This document shows positions 24,648 to 32,503 of a stretch of DNA of 33,363 nucleotides, piece after piece. Both the position numbers and the translations under genes were made by a program. How positions within the stretch are numbered: the stretch's first letter is position 1; each line of letters starts with the position of its first letter. Source of the DNA: an uncultured Geobacteraceae bacterium. Its GTDB lineage: Bacteria > Desulfobacterota > Desulfuromonadia > Geobacterales > Pseudopelobacteraceae. The notes beneath the pieces were generated by a model. That model saw nothing but the letters and a program-made list of their open reading frames with translations. It was not told the DNA's origin and made no database searches. The stretch covers positions 1-33,363 of the forward strand of contig CAIQWT010000022.1 in the NCBI GenBank assembly GCA_903875605.1, written 5' to 3'.

Positions 24648-25826
24648 TTACAGCTTGAATCGGCCTACGAGTGATTGAAGTGTATCAGCTTCTCTGGAAA
24701 GTTCAGAAGATGCGGAGGCTGTTTGAGCAGCTCCATGAGCGGTCTGCCTAACTATGTTGGTAATCTGCTGGATGTTAGAGGCGATTTCTCCTGTGGTTGC
24801 CGTTTGCTCTTCTGCAGCAGTAGCAATCTGGTTTACCTGCATGGTAACGTTATTTATCTGGCTTAAAATCAGCTCAAGCGCTTGCCCGGACCTGATGGAA
24901 AGGTCGGTTCCTTTTTCAACCTCAGCGACTCCCTCCTCAATAGCGACCACTGCACCCCTCGTTTCACTCTGAATCGCTTTGATCATAGCGCCAATTTCGC
25001 GAGTTGCTCTGGTCGTACGCTCCGCAAGAGCTCGCACCTCGTCGGCTACAACGGCGAAGCCTCGTCCCTGCTCTCCAGCCCTGGCCGCTTCAATGGCGGC
25101 ATTTAGAGCCAGCAGGTTAGTCTGGTCAGCTATGTCTTCGATAGTTCCGATTATTTGTCCTATCTGTTCTGAGCGAGCGCCAAGGCTTTCAACAGTTTTC
25201 GCAGCATCTTTTACCTGACAAGCTATGCGTGACATACCGTTTGTTGTTAGCCTGACCGCCTCAGCACCAGAAACAGCTGTGCTGCTGGCCTGCTGTGAAT
25301 CGCCTGCAGCACTTAAACAGTTGCTTGCAATGTCATTTGAGGTCGCAGCCATCTCTTCACTGGCAACTGCGACAGTGTTAGTCTGAGCTGCAACGTCCTC
25401 GGCACCGGCAGCAATCTGACTGGCGCTGCTGTGAAGTTGCCTGGATGTCTGAGCCACCTGCTCCGACGAAAGAGATATTTGGGTTACAATATCGCGGATA
25501 GTTGCCTGCACACTTGATATTGAACGGATAATAGTGCTGATTTCGTTGTTGCGCTTGGGTGAAATTGTTTGGGTAAGATCCCGGTCTGCCATTTTTGCTA
25601 AATAGCCGATAATTCTCAGAAGTGCGTCGTTAATCGACCAGAAAAGCAGGCCGCTGAAAAAAAGTCCGAGAACTACAAACAGAGCTGTTGAAAGTATGGA
25701 AACCGTAGATGAGAGCATTCGCCCAGCTACTACTGCTAAAATTATGCACAAGCTATAGCATATTGACAGCATAAAAATACGGGTGCGTATTTTCAGATGC
25801 AGATAAAATCCTAAAAAGTAATCCAT
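24648..25826 (-). CDS. Methyl-accepting chemotaxis protein without periplasmic domain
   Basis: A 392-aa chemoreceptor. Two membrane helices (about 17-37 and 44-64) are joined by only a few residues, so there is no periplasmic sensor. A HAMP-like segment ([24 protein letters not shown]) leads to the signalling helices. The hairpin tip is [44 protein letters not shown] in order, the CheA/CheW-binding region. Methylation-type Glu/Gln pairs flank it. ATG 25826 has GGGAGGG six bases before it; an ATG in frame 17 codons up is not supported. It lies 90 bp after the haem receptor with no terminator between, so the two are likely co-transcribed. It probably senses the membrane state or a partner. Confidence 0.9.
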
Positions 25827-25916
25827 GTCTGCCCTCCCATAATGCTTTTCAATCCCAAAAATGTAATGCATTGCCAATATTTATAGATAGTATTGCTCCG
25901 TTATGTGCGCCGGGTG

Positions 25917-27530
25917 TTATATTTTAAACTGGCTTACAATTCGTCGCAGGTCATCTGCAAGTACAGAGAGCTGATTCGCAGAAGATGCTGATTCTTTGGC
26001 GCCGCGGGAAGTCTTGGCGACAACCTCTGTGATCTGCTGCATATTACTGCTTATTTCAGATGTCGTTGCGGTCTGCTCTTCGGCTGCAGTGGCAACTTGA
26101 TGGATCTGGGCGTTTACGTCATTAATCTGCTGGAGAATCTGTTCGAGAGCCCTGCCGGAATCTGCAGCTTTCTCGCTTCCCTTTGCTACTTCACTGACCC
26201 CTTCCTCCATGGCGATTACAGCACCTTTTGTTTCTTGCTGGATAGCCTTGATCATTTCACCGATTTCTCTTGTCGCACGTGTAGTGCGCTCAGCCAGCGC
26301 CCGCACTTCATCAGCAACAACTGCAAATCCTCTACCCTGTTCGCCCGCTCTGGCCGCCTCGATGGCAGCATTCAGAGCCAACAGGTTGGTCTGGTCGGCG
26401 ATGTCTTCAATCGTGCCGACAATTTCTCCGATCTGATCAGAGCGGCTCCCCAGACTTTCAACTGCGGTGGCGGAGCTTCTGACACGCTCGGCAATGCTGT
26501 TCATTACTTTAATGGTTTCATCGACAACCCTGGCCCCGGAAACGGCAGCGGCACTTGCCAGTTGAGAGCCTTCTGAAGCCATCTGGCAGTTCTGGGCGAT
26601 GTCACCGGATGTCGCTGACATCTCTTCACCTGCGGTGGCTACAGTCTCGGCCTGTGCGGCGACTTCCTCGGCACCGCTTGCCATTTGAGTGGCATTTGAC
26701 TGTAGTTGTACTGCAGAGGATGATACCTGTTCGCTAGTACGGGCAATCTGTGAGATTATTCCCCTGATTTTATCCACGAGTGAGTTTATCTCATCGGCAA
26801 GTTGTCCGAATTCATCATTGGATTTTACGATGATCTGTTTGGTAAGATCACCCTCGCCCCTGGCCAGATCAGTCACCTTGGAAACAAAGTCATTAAGCTT
26901 CTTCGTAACCGTTACTCGCAGGACTATCATCAGGCAGATAAAGCTGGCAATAAGCGCCACAACTCCGGAAATAAGAAGCATAATGGTAGCTTTTCTACTG
27001 GCGGCGTATCCTTGGTCGAGGCTGGTGTTAAGCTTAAGTGCGCCAAGCATCTTTGTATCTTTGTCATGGCATCCCTGACAGCGCTCTTCGTTAGGCAGTG
27101 GGATTATAGTCTCAAGAATATGAATGCCGTTTTGTTTGCCCTCGCTACTTGTGGCTTTGTTGCTTTTTAAAACCTCGGCCACAAGGGCATCACCCTTTAC
27201 ACCGCTACCGCGCTCATCACCCTTTTCATTGTAGATGGAAAAACCTACAGCCCGGTTTTTTTGAAGCACATCCTTGATGTAGGTATCAACTTTTTTCATA
27301 TCATCTGCCATCATGGCGGTTTTTATGTCGTCACCCATGATATTCACAAAGACCAGGCTGTTGTCTCTTTGCAGTCCGACCAACGCCTGTTTCTCCAGAT
27401 ACAGGGCTGCCGATCCAACTATTACCAGGCCTGTTATCAGTGCCAAGCTTGCCGCCAGGAGGATTTTAGTGGCGATGCCGGTTTTTCTGCCTGTTCGTGA
27501 GGATGAGTCAGTGAAATTCTGTTGCGACAT
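25917..27530 (-). CDS. Haem-binding methyl-accepting chemotaxis protein
   Basis: A 537-aa chemoreceptor. A first membrane helix (about 21-45) and a second (about 183-205) enclose a periplasmic domain of about 135 residues that contains CQGCH (151-155), a c-type haem attachment site. A HAMP domain (about 206-260) and the complete signalling hairpin follow, with the same [16 protein letters not shown] tip as its neighbour. Geobacter species are known to carry receptors with a PAS-like periplasmic domain and a covalent haem c that respond to redox or gases; this protein has that layout. ATG 27530 has GGGGAG eight bases before it; the frame 12 codons further up is rejected. It is the first gene of the receptor pair. 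Confidence 0.93.
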
Positions 27531-27774
27531 AATCGGTTCTCCCCAGTGAGATATAGTAATTAGCAACTGTTATTACATGCTCATCTAAATGTAGATACAA
27601 GAATATTGAATATATGGAGATTTGTTGCGACAAAGTGATTTTACAACTTTTTTTTAAAGTTACAAATAAATAATATATTGAAATTATTTTTTAGAAATGC
27701 AAGAAATTGATTTCAAGCAAGTTACAGGCCAGTACTATTGTCGCTATTCAGCTTTTTATGGCACGGAGAGTCAG

Positions 27775-29165: not shown

Positions 29166-29959
29166 TTGAAGTGGTATGAAAGAGAACGTCATAAATGTTC
29201 GGAAAGGTTAATATTATACAAATGCACTTGTCTATTGGTAAATAACAATAGGCTTTGTAGACCATGGACTGAGACTATAAAAATTGGTGTGGAGAAAATG
29301 GAAAACGTCATTTTTCTAAGTCAAATGTAAAAGAACTTCTGGAAAACAACATAAGTCTAGGTATTCATTTTAGCACCTTGTATGATTGTGAAATTTCCCG
29401 GGGTATTCTATCGAAAGAAGCAGAAATAATTTTAATGTTTTAGATTTATAGCCTGCTTTAGTCAGTCATCCATTAGACTTCCCCCTCGGCAATTTCTATG
29501 CGATTCGAAATAGTGAAGCCTCGGCAGATTCTGTAGCCCTATCCTTGCGTCCGATGTCTGCTGCTATAATGGGAGTGGCAAAAGTGTTTTTTTTGCGTGT
29601 GGCTTCCAACTGAATGCCCATTTTAAGCCTATTTAAAGCTACTTTGGTAGTGAATAAATTTTCTCAAAGGAATACTAGTTTCAGCAGAATATTTTGAAAT
29701 TGCCAATTTAAAGCGCTATTATCACCTGTAATTTGTTTAACATTCGTCGTGATTGTCAGATGGTTGCAAACTGCAAAAATGGATGTAAAATAACATAACA
29801 CCTTGATTCAAAAAAGGAACGGCGGATGGCAATATAATGAGCAGGCAAGTAATCCCCTGACAACCACCACGGTCAACAATTATCCTGATTGATGTTATTA
29901 CGAACCGATATTGCGGCTTTTTCGTTCACCGTTTTTTTTGCATATAGAAGAGGAAGAAT
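29166..29959. other. 794-bp region with no convincing gene
   Basis: An open stretch at 29272-29443 (+) lacks a start codon but reads plausibly (WCGENGKRHFSKSNVKELLE ... SRGILSKEAEIILMF) and may be the remains of a small protein. A 41-codon minus-strand ORF (29621-29496) has no ribosome site. A T8 run lies at 29586-29593. No promoter, RNA or mobile element is recognised, apart from an AT-rich 5' flank of the activator gene. Confidence 0.4.
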
Positions 29960-31786
29960 ATGTCAATAGATCAAATAACAGCAGACCAGAATTTGCGTGA
30001 TATGGTCAATTCTCCTAAGCAGGCGTTCCTGAAGCTTCACGAACTACAGATGCGTCTGGTTGAACTGGAGATGCAAAACGATGAGTTGCGCCACACGCAG
30101 GCAGAGAATGAAGCCCGTCTGCGCACTCTGGTGCGTACCATTCCCGATCTGGTCTGGCTTAAAGATGTGGATGGTGTTTATCTGGCCTGTAATAGAATGT
30201 TTGAACGATTCTTTGGTGCCAAAGAAGAGGATATTATCGGTAAAACCGACTACGACTTTGTGGACAGGGAGCTAGCTGATTCCTTCTGTGAGCACGATCG
30301 CAACGCAATGGGGGCGGGAAAACCAACCGGCAACGAGGAATGGATCACCTATTCGGACAACGGTCAGCGGGCCCTGCTTGAAACCGTCAAGACCCCGATG
30401 TACGACAACGATGGTAAGATGATCGGTGTGTTGGGGGTCGCCCGTGACATCACCGGGCGCATACAGGCTGAAAAAGACCGGCTGAAAATGGAACGTGAAT
30501 TCCAGCAAAGCCAGATATTTCAGACTATTTCCGACTCAATCATCATGATCGATACGGAAGGGTGCCTGGCAAACTTCAATGCGGCAGCGGAAAAAGTCTG
30601 TGGCTACACGATTGACATGATTGGCAGAAAGATAACTGAAATCGGTCCCGGTTTCAGCGAAGTTTTACAGGAATCGCTCTCCAGTAATTTTCCCCGTGAA
30701 ATGCGTTGTTTTGAGCTGTGTACGCCTGAAGGTAAAAATCGCATCTTCAGCCTCAGGGCAACTCCCGTAACCGAACTGGATGGTACTGTCAGCGGCACGG
30801 TGGCGGTCATCCGGGATGAAACCTATCTGATTGAACTGGAACGTTCCCTGGAAATTCGCAGTCAGTTTCATGGCATTATCGGCGCTTCCGCATCAATGCA
30901 GCGAGTCTATTCCTTGATTGAATCCCTGGCCAATGTGCAGACGACAGTGCTGATATTTGGAGAAAGCGGGACCGGCAAAGAGCTGGTCGCCGCAGCGCTG
31001 CACTTATCCGGAAAGCGATCCGGAGGGCCGTTTATCAAGGTCAACTGCTCGGCATTATCAGAATTTCTGCTGGAAAGTGAACTGTTCGGTCATGTGCGCG
31101 GAGCGTTTACCGGGGCAATTGCCGACAAGGCCGGGCGTTTCCAGAAGGCGGATGGCGGAACGCTTTTTTTGGACGAAATCGGCGATATCTCATCCGCCAT
31201 CCAGATGCGGCTGTTACGGGTATTGCAGGAGAGCGAGTTTGAGCGGGTTGGTGACTCAAACCCCATCAAGGTGAATGTTCGTATCATAGCCGCAACGAAC
31301 ATGAATCTTGAGGAAAAAGTCCGGCAGGGTCTGTTCCGGAAGGATCTCTACTATCGCCTCAATGTATTTCGCTTTGAGTTGCCGCCTCTCCGGGATCGTC
31401 TTGACGACCTTCCTCTCCTGGTCACCCACTTCATTAAACGATACAACGATAAATTCGATCGTGAAATTCTGGGCGTGTCAGATAATGTCATGGATCTGTT
31501 TCGAACCTACGATTGGCCCGGCAATATCCGGGAACTTGAACATGTTATTGAGCGTGCCATAATCCTCTGCACTTCGGACATCATATCCGTCAACGATCTG
31601 CCTGACGCCGTGCTGCATGATCCCCGGCATGCCAGCAATGAGACTTCGCCAGCAACATACCCCTCTTCAGAAACCACGCGCCAGCCACTCACCATCGAAG
31701 AAGCCCTTGTCAAAGCCGGGGGCAATAAAACCCGTGCGGCGAAACTACTGGGTATCAGTCGCTGGACTTTGTATCGAAAGTTGTAG
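29960..31786 (+). CDS. Sigma-54-dependent activator, PAS-PAS-AAA+-Fis
   Basis: A 608-aa enhancer-binding protein. A short coiled coil (~25-55) leads to PAS 1 (~55-170, TIPDLVWLKDVDGVYLACNRM ... GVLGVARDITGR) and PAS 2 (~185-290, SDSIIMIDTEGCLANFNAAAEKV). The AAA+ domain (~303-535) has Walker A GESGTGKE (334-341), the sigma-54 loop GAFTGA (381-386), Walker B LFLDEIGD (402-409) and arginine fingers downstream. A Fis-type helix-turn-helix ends the protein (NKTRAAKLLGISRWTLYRKL). It opens sigma-54 promoters using ATP, under control of a ligand or redox signal at the PAS domains; there is no receiver domain. AGAGGAAG precedes the ATG. Directly downstream are two dyads and a -24/-12 promoter, so the next genes are likely targets. 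GC content is above that of genes to the left. Confidence 0.95.
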   Translation: MSIDQITADQNLRDMVNSPKQAFLKLHELQMRLVELEMQNDELRHTQAENEARLRTLVRTIPDLVWLKDVDGVYLACNRMFERFFGAKEEDIIGKTDYDFVDRELADSFCEHDRNAMGAGKPTGNEEWITYSDNGQRALLETVKTPMYDNDGKMIGVLGVARDITGRIQAEKDRLKMEREFQQSQIFQTISDSIIMIDTEGCLANFNAAAEKVCGYTIDMIGRKITEIGPGFSEVLQESLSSNFPREMRCFELCTPEGKNRIFSLRATPVTELDGTVSGTVAVIRDETYLIELERSLEIRSQFHGIIGASASMQRVYSLIESLANVQTTVLIFGESGTGKELVAAALHLSGKRSGGPFIKVNCSALSEFLLESELFGHVRGAFTGAIADKAGRFQKADGGTLFLDEIGDISSAIQMRLLRVLQESEFERVGDSNPIKVNVRIIAATNMNLEEKVRQGLFRKDLYYRLNVFRFELPPLRDRLDDLPLLVTHFIKRYNDKFDREILGVSDNVMDLFRTYDWPGNIRELEHVIERAIILCTSDIISVNDLPDAVLHDPRHASNETSPATYPSSETTRQPLTIEEALVKAGGNKTRAAKLLGISRWTLYRKL

Positions 31787-31839
31787 CATGCTACAGTTTT
31801 GGCGCACACATGTAACGCTTCAAGTTGTAGCACACTACA
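31782..31839. promoter_or_regulatory. Paired dyads, probable enhancer (UAS) for the activator
   Basis: TGTAGCATGCTACA (31782-31795, perfect palindrome, overlapping the activator's stop) and TGTAGCACACTACA (31826-31839) have identical TGTAG/CTACA arms, four-base centres and shared flanks GT...GTT. Their centres are 44 bp apart, about four helix turns. They lie about 140-190 bp upstream of the predicted sigma-54 transcription start, the normal enhancer distance. Confidence 0.75.
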
Positions 31840-31951
31840 GTTCCCCACTTCCTCGCAGTAGCTTCCGTAAGACCAATAAACTCAGTTAACTTACCGTATA
31901 TTATCACTTATTCCGGATATTCACCTTTGGCTTTCGCCCCTGTCTTAGCCA

Positions 31952-31967
31952 TGGCACATTTATTGTA
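31952..31967 (+). promoter_or_regulatory. Sigma-54 promoter for the receiver gene
   Basis: TGGCACATTTATTGTA matches TGGCAC-N5-TTGCA except T for C at -12, with GG and GT 12 bases apart. RNA would start near 31978, 72 bases before the ATG at 32050. Its pairing with the upstream dyads and the adjacent activator gene supports it. Confidence 0.7.
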
Positions 31968-32049
31968 AATATTATCTATAACGTTCTATCTAAAAGCAAA
32001 ACTGCGAGAGGATTCTCCCTCTTTATCCTTTGGAAAAGGAGTCATACAG

Positions 32050-32448
32050 ATGAAATGTTTGATAGTGGAAGATGATTTAAAATCCCGTCATATTCTTAAA
32101 GAGCTGCTCTCGTCATTCGGTGACTGCGATATAGCGGTCAACGGCCAGGAAGCGATCGACTCCTTCCGCCTTGCTCACGAATTTAAGCGACCCTATGACG
32201 CGATCTTTATGAATATCACGATGCCGGATGTCGATGGGTTGACGGCGCTGAGAGAAATCCGCTGCCTGGAACAGGGTATGGAGATGCCTCCCGGCCAGAA
32301 GGTTAAGGCTGTCATGATGACCGCCTCTGGCGACCCCCGCACAGTGATCAAGGCGTTCAAAGAAGGAGAAGCGAACTCATTCCTCGTCAAGCCGATAACC
32401 AAAAAGAAACTGGACAAGGAAATGGTTGCGCTCATGGTGGAAGAGTAA
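32050..32448 (+). CDS. Receiver-domain protein lacking the phospho-acceptor Asp
   Basis: A 132-aa single receiver domain (CheY fold). The acidic pair is at Glu7-Asp8-Asp9, the switch residue is Thr91 in MMTAS, and the conserved Lys is Lys114 in FLVKP. The position that normally bears the phosphorylated Asp is Asn55 (IFMNITMPDVDG), so it cannot be phosphorylated in the usual way and is likely a pseudo-receiver. AAAAGGAG lies seven bases before the ATG. It is the first gene after the sigma-54 promoter and is followed 55 bp later by the binding-protein gene. It may act by binding a partner, with its level rather than phosphorylation as the signal. Confidence 0.9.
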   Translation: MKCLIVEDDLKSRHILKELLSSFGDCDIAVNGQEAIDSFRLAHEFKRPYDAIFMNITMPDVDGLTALREIRCLEQGMEMPPGQKVKAVMMTASGDPRTVIKAFKEGEANSFLVKPITKKKLDKEMVALMVEE

Positions 32449-32503
32449 CCCTCTGTAAAGATTGATTACTATTTCCGAACCAGTAACCAACAAGGACCAC
32501 ACC

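Follow-up and report, generated by a model that had tools for sequence, protein, structure and literature searches.

These bacteria contain many paralogous bacterial enhancer-binding proteins (bEBPs), and sequence data seldom reveal how cross-talk among them is prevented. In the locus described here, a gene for a sigma-54 activator with two PAS domains ends within the first of two near-identical palindromes (dyads), a -24/-12 promoter follows, and beyond it lie the genes of a receiver-like protein and a binding lipoprotein (Table 1). Does the activator read these two dyads, the first of which overlaps its stop codon, and does it drive the operon that follows? The window, i.e. the whole stretch of DNA analysed, is the entire contig CAIQWT010000022.1 of assembly GCA_903875605.1 (33,363 nt), and all positions follow its numbering. 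Its source genome (G000) is counted within the 39 genomes of the genus and gave one match to the RpoN DNA-binding domain in a domain search. Based on the conservation of dyads and promoter together with the activator, combined with the co-variation of its recognition helix with the dyad bases, the activator is most likely both the reader of the dyads and the driver of the next operon, which supports the control of the adjoining genes claimed in the original prediction. We regard it as very probable that the locus forms a local one-component sigma-54 circuit, in which the PAS-PAS activator drives the pseudo-receiver operon by binding to the dyads located where its own coding sequence ends.

Table 1. 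Predicted elements of the activator locus, in window numbering.
Feature	Position	Strand	Basis
Sigma-54 activator (bEBP), open reading frame	29960..31786	+	Pfam; orthologues of 84-85% identity in G023 and G008
Trp602 codon, variable position X of the recognition-helix motif SRXT	31763..31765	+	Helix/dyad co-variation
Dyad 1, TGTAGCATGCTACA, across the last Leu codon and the stop of the activator gene	31782..31795	.	Exact TGTAG-N4-CTACA; conserved in G023 and G008
Possible degenerate middle dyad, GCACACATGTAACG, spaced 22 bp from each of the other two	31804..31817	.	Three-locus alignment; weak
Dyad 2, TGTAGCACACTACA	31826..31839	.	Exact TGTAG-N4-CTACA; reads TGTAGCATGCTACA in G023 and G008
-24/-12 element, TGGCACATTTATTGTA, predicted RNA start ~31978	31952..31967	+	Conserved in three aligned loci
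Ribosome-binding site, AAAAGGAG	32034..32041	+	Read from sequence
Single-domain pseudo-receiver, 132 aa, Asp to Asn at the phospho-acceptor codon (32212-32214)	32050..32448	+	Pfam
NMT1/THI5-type binding lipoprotein, cut by the contig end	32504..33363	+	Pfam NMT1, LPAM_1; 80% homologue in G008

By its domains, the activator is a predicted sigma-54-dependent bEBP of the NtrC/NifA class, expected to bind the dyads and to activate open-complex formation. Pfam places PAS domains at residues 53-165 and 186-286, a Sigma54_activat AAA+ domain at 306-471 (PF00158, E 4.6e-69), a lid, and a C-terminal Fis-type helix-turn-helix at 579-608 (PF02954, E 7.4e-11), and the GAFTGA loop is present in the window (DNA HVRGAFTGAIADK) as well as in the database orthologues read. 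According to Pfam, the receiver domain PF00072 is absent from the activator and from its G008 orthologue and present in the paralogues P0020 and P0013, so that the activator does not classify as an NtrC-like response regulator of a two-component system. The earlier description of a receiver-less activator with two PAS domains is thus borne out, with the correction that most other family members are receiver-bearing and that those whose loci were scanned lie beside chemosensory genes. The six database activators P0002-P0007 all end in SRWTLYRKL and vary in length and PAS content: the input part has been exchanged and the DNA-reading part has not; tryptophan occupies the variable position of the recognition helix in 6/6 database orthologues read. 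The majority of the named close relatives are labelled Desulfuromonadales or Desulfuromonadaceae. Outside these close kin, among the best 80 of 512 relative loci (a list that may omit records of very near genomes), the top relative shares 49% identity with residues 169-608, and no segment exceeds 55% identity, a value reached only across residues 291-548. The best-scoring solved relatives of the AAA+ part are ZraR and then a Nif-specific regulator, and that of the lipoprotein is a formyl-aminopyrimidine-binding protein; no ligand can be read from these sequence matches. The ~800 bp before the activator (29166-29959) contain no open reading frame of at least 90 aa and no Rfam match at gathering score.

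Both dyads match TGTAG-N4-CTACA exactly and lie 44 bp apart where they had been predicted, and the window holds no further exact match. Within 31700-32060 one direct repeat was found, of 21 nt with 44-nt spacing and 90% identity, which is the dyad pair itself. Dyad 1 had been said to start inside the activator's stop codon; it spans the stop, but starts two bases earlier. Likewise, the -24/-12 promoter placed about 160 bp on has the correct spacing, but reads TGGCAC-N5-TTGTA, one mismatch from TGGCAC-N5-TTGC, with GT instead of GC as the -12 dinucleotide. It lies 170 bp from the start of dyad 1 and 112 bp from the end of dyad 2, and counting 24 bases on from it leads to the RNA start given previously. 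No match to an IHF consensus with up to two mismatches was found between dyads and promoter. Taken singly, such elements occur at chance level: allowing two mismatches, the window holds 13 dyads against 10.8 expected and 38 promoter-like matches against 33.3, and allowing one mismatch, the source genome holds 74 single dyads against 93 for the backward control. Single-dyad counts were hence rejected as evidence, and it is the combination of dyads and promoter that counts. The exact twin pattern is found at one place in the source genome. A wider regulon was rejected for exact dyads, as the two other exact single dyads of this genome both fall within long open frames and the surrounding 3 kb contain nothing resembling a -24/-12 element.

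Across the genus, the twin dyad tracks with the activator. A relative of the activator (E up to 1e-140) is present in 27 of the 39 genomes, the source genome included, and a full-length PAS-PAS orthologue only in G000, G023 and G008. The same three genomes each contain the exact twin dyad (gap 10-40) once, and the other 36 lack it; read backwards, the twin pattern has no match in any of the 39. In all three orthologous loci the dyads start at -2 and at +41 or +42 from the activator stop and are followed by TGGCACA-N4-TTGTA, so that dyads, their position and the -24/-12 element are kept beside the activator in both other orthologue genomes; an absence of the dyads next to orthologues, which would have spoken against the original prediction, is thus not seen. 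In the three-locus alignment, dyads and promoter stand out as conserved blocks from flanking sequence that drifts, with a third block between the dyads. A weak middle dyad lies there in register, with spacings of 22/22, 21/22 and 22/22 bp in the three loci; it is the best candidate in two of them and the second in G023. A three-site array is accordingly possible, with two good sites and one degenerate site in the conserved middle block.

The arrangement recurs in the wider activator family, for which 36 further loci were fetched, giving 37 with the window. Arrays were defined as TGT-N8-ACA dyads with 5/6 end bases and 5/7 pairs, spaced 20-24 or 42-46 bp apart, and were searched in the region reaching from 2 kb upstream to 4 kb downstream of the activator stop; the filter, the allowed spacings and the promoter score were chosen after the first loci had been viewed, and controls were run at the same settings. 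Phased arrays lie 3' of the activator in 28/37 loci, the filter finding none in the other nine (G014a, G029, G017, G036a, G031, G020b, G015b, G053 and G057), and whole loci yield 44 array pairs forward against none in 576,804 bases of reversed sequence. The array is within 110 bp of the activator stop in half of the 28 loci and 0.9-2.5 kb further on in the other 14. At 64-129 bp beyond the array (median 98 bp), a -24/-12 element scoring at least 12.5 is present in 25 of the 28, with three lacking one at this threshold; 232 of 5600 dinucleotide shuffles (4.1%) reach the same score. A stricter array pattern is found in 11/39 genomes of the genus and in 13/141 of the order, in 2/29 genera. In 27 of the 28 loci the best-scoring promoter site has T instead of C in the -12 dinucleotide, though the score favours C. 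For G. sulfurreducens, the consensus is reported as TTGGCACGGTTTTTGCT (PMC2725144), from which the GT of the window departs. We do not claim GT as a speciality of the family: strict TGGCAC-N5-TTGYA occurs at eight places in the source genome (three in the control), seven reading TTGTA and one TTGCA. It may instead be general in this lineage, which, if true, would be unusual.

Chemosensory genes accompany several of these arrays. By Pfam, the G005 locus encodes an MCP, a CheA-type Hpt/kinase protein, a further MCPsignal protein and a receiver, the G000:C94 locus an MCP, and CheW genes follow the arrays of G122 and G123; in other family loci such genes were judged from translations read by eye. 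In G000:C94 (L130, 45000-63000), a paralogue of the methionine helix class is followed by a FapA gene, a dyad array, an MCP gene and a family receiver with Asp intact, placing a gene of flagellar-assembly type within a sigma-54 chemosensory locus; this is the one far-array locus scanned, and the FapA-type gene stands after the activator. The window itself carries two adjoining methyl-accepting chemotaxis protein genes on the minus strand (24648-27566), one with an Mcp40H-20 sensor domain by Pfam.

How the paralogues may be kept apart is suggested by the recognition helix, where we compared residue X of [ST]RXT with bases 4-5 of each dyad half-site. With W these bases are AG in 12/12 half-sites (three activators), with P AA in 12/12 (three activators) and with L AT in 4/4 (one activator). 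With R, base 4 is G in 25/28 half-sites of six activators, mostly as GA or GC; the three exceptions lack G, one reading AG, and each of the six activators has TGTG half-sites. With M, AA is found in 47/70 half-sites of 15 activators, the other 23 differing. The mutual information is 1.28 bits against a permuted mean of 0.38, with 0/5000 permutations as high. On the AAA+ tree (28 rows), X can be accounted for by the minimum of four changes; about four joint changes thus underlie the co-variation, and the permutation count, which overstates it, should not be read as a probability. R activators are spread over more than one clade of this tree, its most distant row, G025, being R. Four extra arrays were found by the dyad pattern alone, in G002, in G122 and twice in G123; in G002 and in G122, the latter from another genus, the neighbouring helix is SRRT and the dyads are TGTG, fitting the rule. 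The two TGTG-type arrays of G123 (L228, L229) precede the CheW genes, with no activator helix found by the helix pattern in the DNA fetched, and an activator encoded elsewhere may serve several operons in that genome. In all four genomes with two array-bearing activators in the set (G000, G027, G022 and G032), the two differ in class. With activator gene, array and promoter side by side, the likely binding site of each paralogue can be seen next to its gene, and a one-residue/two-base rule becomes readable. If this code holds, the window activator would prefer TGTAG dyads over TGTAACATGTTACA and TGTGACATGTCACA DNA.

It could be argued that the dyads are read by a different regulator, a repressor or another bEBP, as proximity alone is no proof of binding and bEBPs are able to act at a distance. 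However, the joint occurrence of twin dyad and full-length orthologue in three genomes, with neither in the other 36, and the joint change of helix residue and dyad bases, which the cases in G002 and G122 follow, make this improbable. Still less probable is that the dyads act at the RNA level, forming a stem or a weak terminator that separates activator and operon. They can pair with each other as RNA (-21.3 kcal/mol, z -1.93), as two copies of one palindrome must, but 8 of 200 shuffles fold equally well, the single terminator-like site in 29600-32500 lies at 32006-32023 and not at the dyads, and elsewhere in the family arrays far beyond the activator stop nevertheless keep their short distance to a -24/-12 element. 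We consider it just as improbable that a sigma-70 promoter operates here, next to a chance -24/-12 match and an activator and dyads that are unrelated to it, although a TAGCCA-18-TATTAT match (9/12) overlaps at 31946-31975, the -12 is GT, and promoter-like matches in the window are near chance in number. Against it, TGGCAC-N5-TTGTA is kept in three loci while the flanks drift, and a good -24/-12 element recurs downstream of nearly all arrays of the family.

The operon presumed to be driven by the activator begins with the pseudo-receiver, in which the phospho-acceptor Asp of phosphorylatable CheY-like receivers is missing: Asn takes its place in the window, in G008 and in G023. Among 32 of the 52 family receivers of the genus examined, Asn is confined to these three orthologous loci and the other 29 have Asp. 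Among 120 of 313 database homologues listed, the 23 with Asn are all of 75-95% identity and the 97 with Asp all of at most 70%; the second acidic residue, Thr and Lys are kept in the Asn homologues listed, with one exception. The missing Asp might mark a decaying gene, and not a working part. However, the uniform Asn among close homologues, the retention of the other active-site residues and a dN of 0.10-0.12 against a dS of 0.49-0.59 (dN/dS ~0.2), indicative of purifying selection, make decay very unlikely. From the homologue distribution and the low dN relative to dS, we conclude that the change to Asn is maintained.

The lipoprotein gene adjoins the pseudo-receiver gene in G000 only; the G008 homologue lies two genes later, across a contig join. 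There, the first contig carries the activator, the pseudo-receiver, a kinase-receiver protein and an SBP_bac_3-PAS protein truncated by the contig end, and this end shares an identical stretch of 141 bp with that of a second contig. Such an overlap fits neighbouring contigs; a repeat could also give it. On the second contig follow part of a PAS-kinase-receiver protein, the 80% lipoprotein homologue, a HAMP-PAS-kinase-receiver, an NMT1-PAS-kinase-receiver and a GGDEF-EAL protein, and the G008 operon hence seems to extend over hybrid kinase genes as well as those of the lipoprotein and the GGDEF-EAL protein. In G023, the pseudo-receiver begins 145 bp from a contig end and is followed by a PAS hybrid kinase and an SBP_bac_3 kinase; it lies on another contig than the activator, and an overlap of the contig ends was looked for and not found. 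Based on the gene order in G008 and G023, the window probably holds the start of a sensor-kinase operon. NMT1 neighbours were viewed for the window's own gene and three others of 15 NMT1 matches; an NMT1 gene directly precedes a HAMP kinase in G008:C476, G008:C91 and G005:C23. Another NMT1 domain of the G008 cluster is kinase-fused. We do not favour the view that the lipoprotein is the sensor portion of a fused kinase, as its 80% and 78% homologues are open frames of 341 and 344 aa.

Taken together, we propose the following mechanism. The signal would enter through the PAS domains and free the AAA+ part, whereupon activator dimers on the phased dyads would assemble the AAA+ ring. The ring would then open the sigma-54 promoter 112 bp away, leading to transcription of the operon from the pseudo-receiver on. 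For the pseudo-receiver, the probable mode of action is binding to a kinase encoded in its own operon, which is the least certain step. The window branch probably derives from receiver-bearing activators working beside chemosensory genes, and, as PAS domains replace the receiver in the activator and the partner receiver is without a phospho-acceptor, control at both steps is probably phosphorylation-independent now. More broadly, X of SRXT may set bases 4-5 of the TGT-NN-CATG-NN-ACA dyad and thereby insulate co-resident paralogous chemosensory and kinase operons in this Desulfuromonadales lineage, with the window circuit converted as a unit to phosphorylation-independent control (PAS for receiver, Asn for Asp); we see this combined proposal as evenly balanced between right and wrong. 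The joint loss of both phosphorylation features, if true, would represent a clear case of a two-component branch turned one-component.

Among known systems, the NorR gene is divergent from its target, whereas activator and target share one strand in the window. NorR of Escherichia coli uses three enhancer sites upstream of the norVW sigma-54 promoter as a scaffold for its oligomer (PMC2941729); the window resembles it in having several sites between activator gene and target and in one-component N-terminal sensing, and differs in having PAS-PAS in place of the NO-sensing GAF domain, sites that start in the last codon of the activator, and a possible third site that is degenerate. Local bEBP regulons are already known in deltaproteobacteria: for Desulfovibrio vulgaris, PMC4641369 describes bEBP genes often co-localised with their own sigma-54 promoter, regulons that mostly comprise one to four operons, half-sites of the TGT...ACA type that fall into three motif groups, and PAS input in six one-component activators. 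The half-site spacing there is 9, 11 or 12 bp compared to 8 here, and motif similarity does not always follow similarity of the DNA-binding domain, whereas here one helix residue tracks the motif (PMC4641369). In Geobacter and other deltaproteobacteria, sigma-54 promoters have been predicted before some che clusters; the main text of that report has no match for 'enhancer', 'palindrom' or 'inverted repeat', and the passages concerned deal with neither an activator nor its sites, unlike here (PMC2577667). A single-domain protein comparable to the pseudo-receiver is Osp, a response-regulator-like inhibitor of the hybrid kinase CckA, thought not to be phosphorylated (PMC9430884); Osp keeps Asp and is without the acidic pair and Lys, whereas the window receiver has Asn and keeps the others, and the kinase partner of the latter is a guess by this analogy. 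As far as a limited literature search reaches, the TGT-N8-ACA arrays, the helix/dyad rule in this activator family and the paired loss of phosphorylation features are new. The same search gave no described system with the gene set of the window, in line with the earlier statement that none was known.

The source genome also encodes a second single-domain receiver of the family, with its Asp intact (L191, G000:C54, 1-3487). It is preceded by TGTAAA-type repeats and a weak -24/-12-like site and followed by KaiC, KaiB and then a protein without a Pfam match, and by eye the locus looks similar to what follows the SRPTLYKLL activator in G014.
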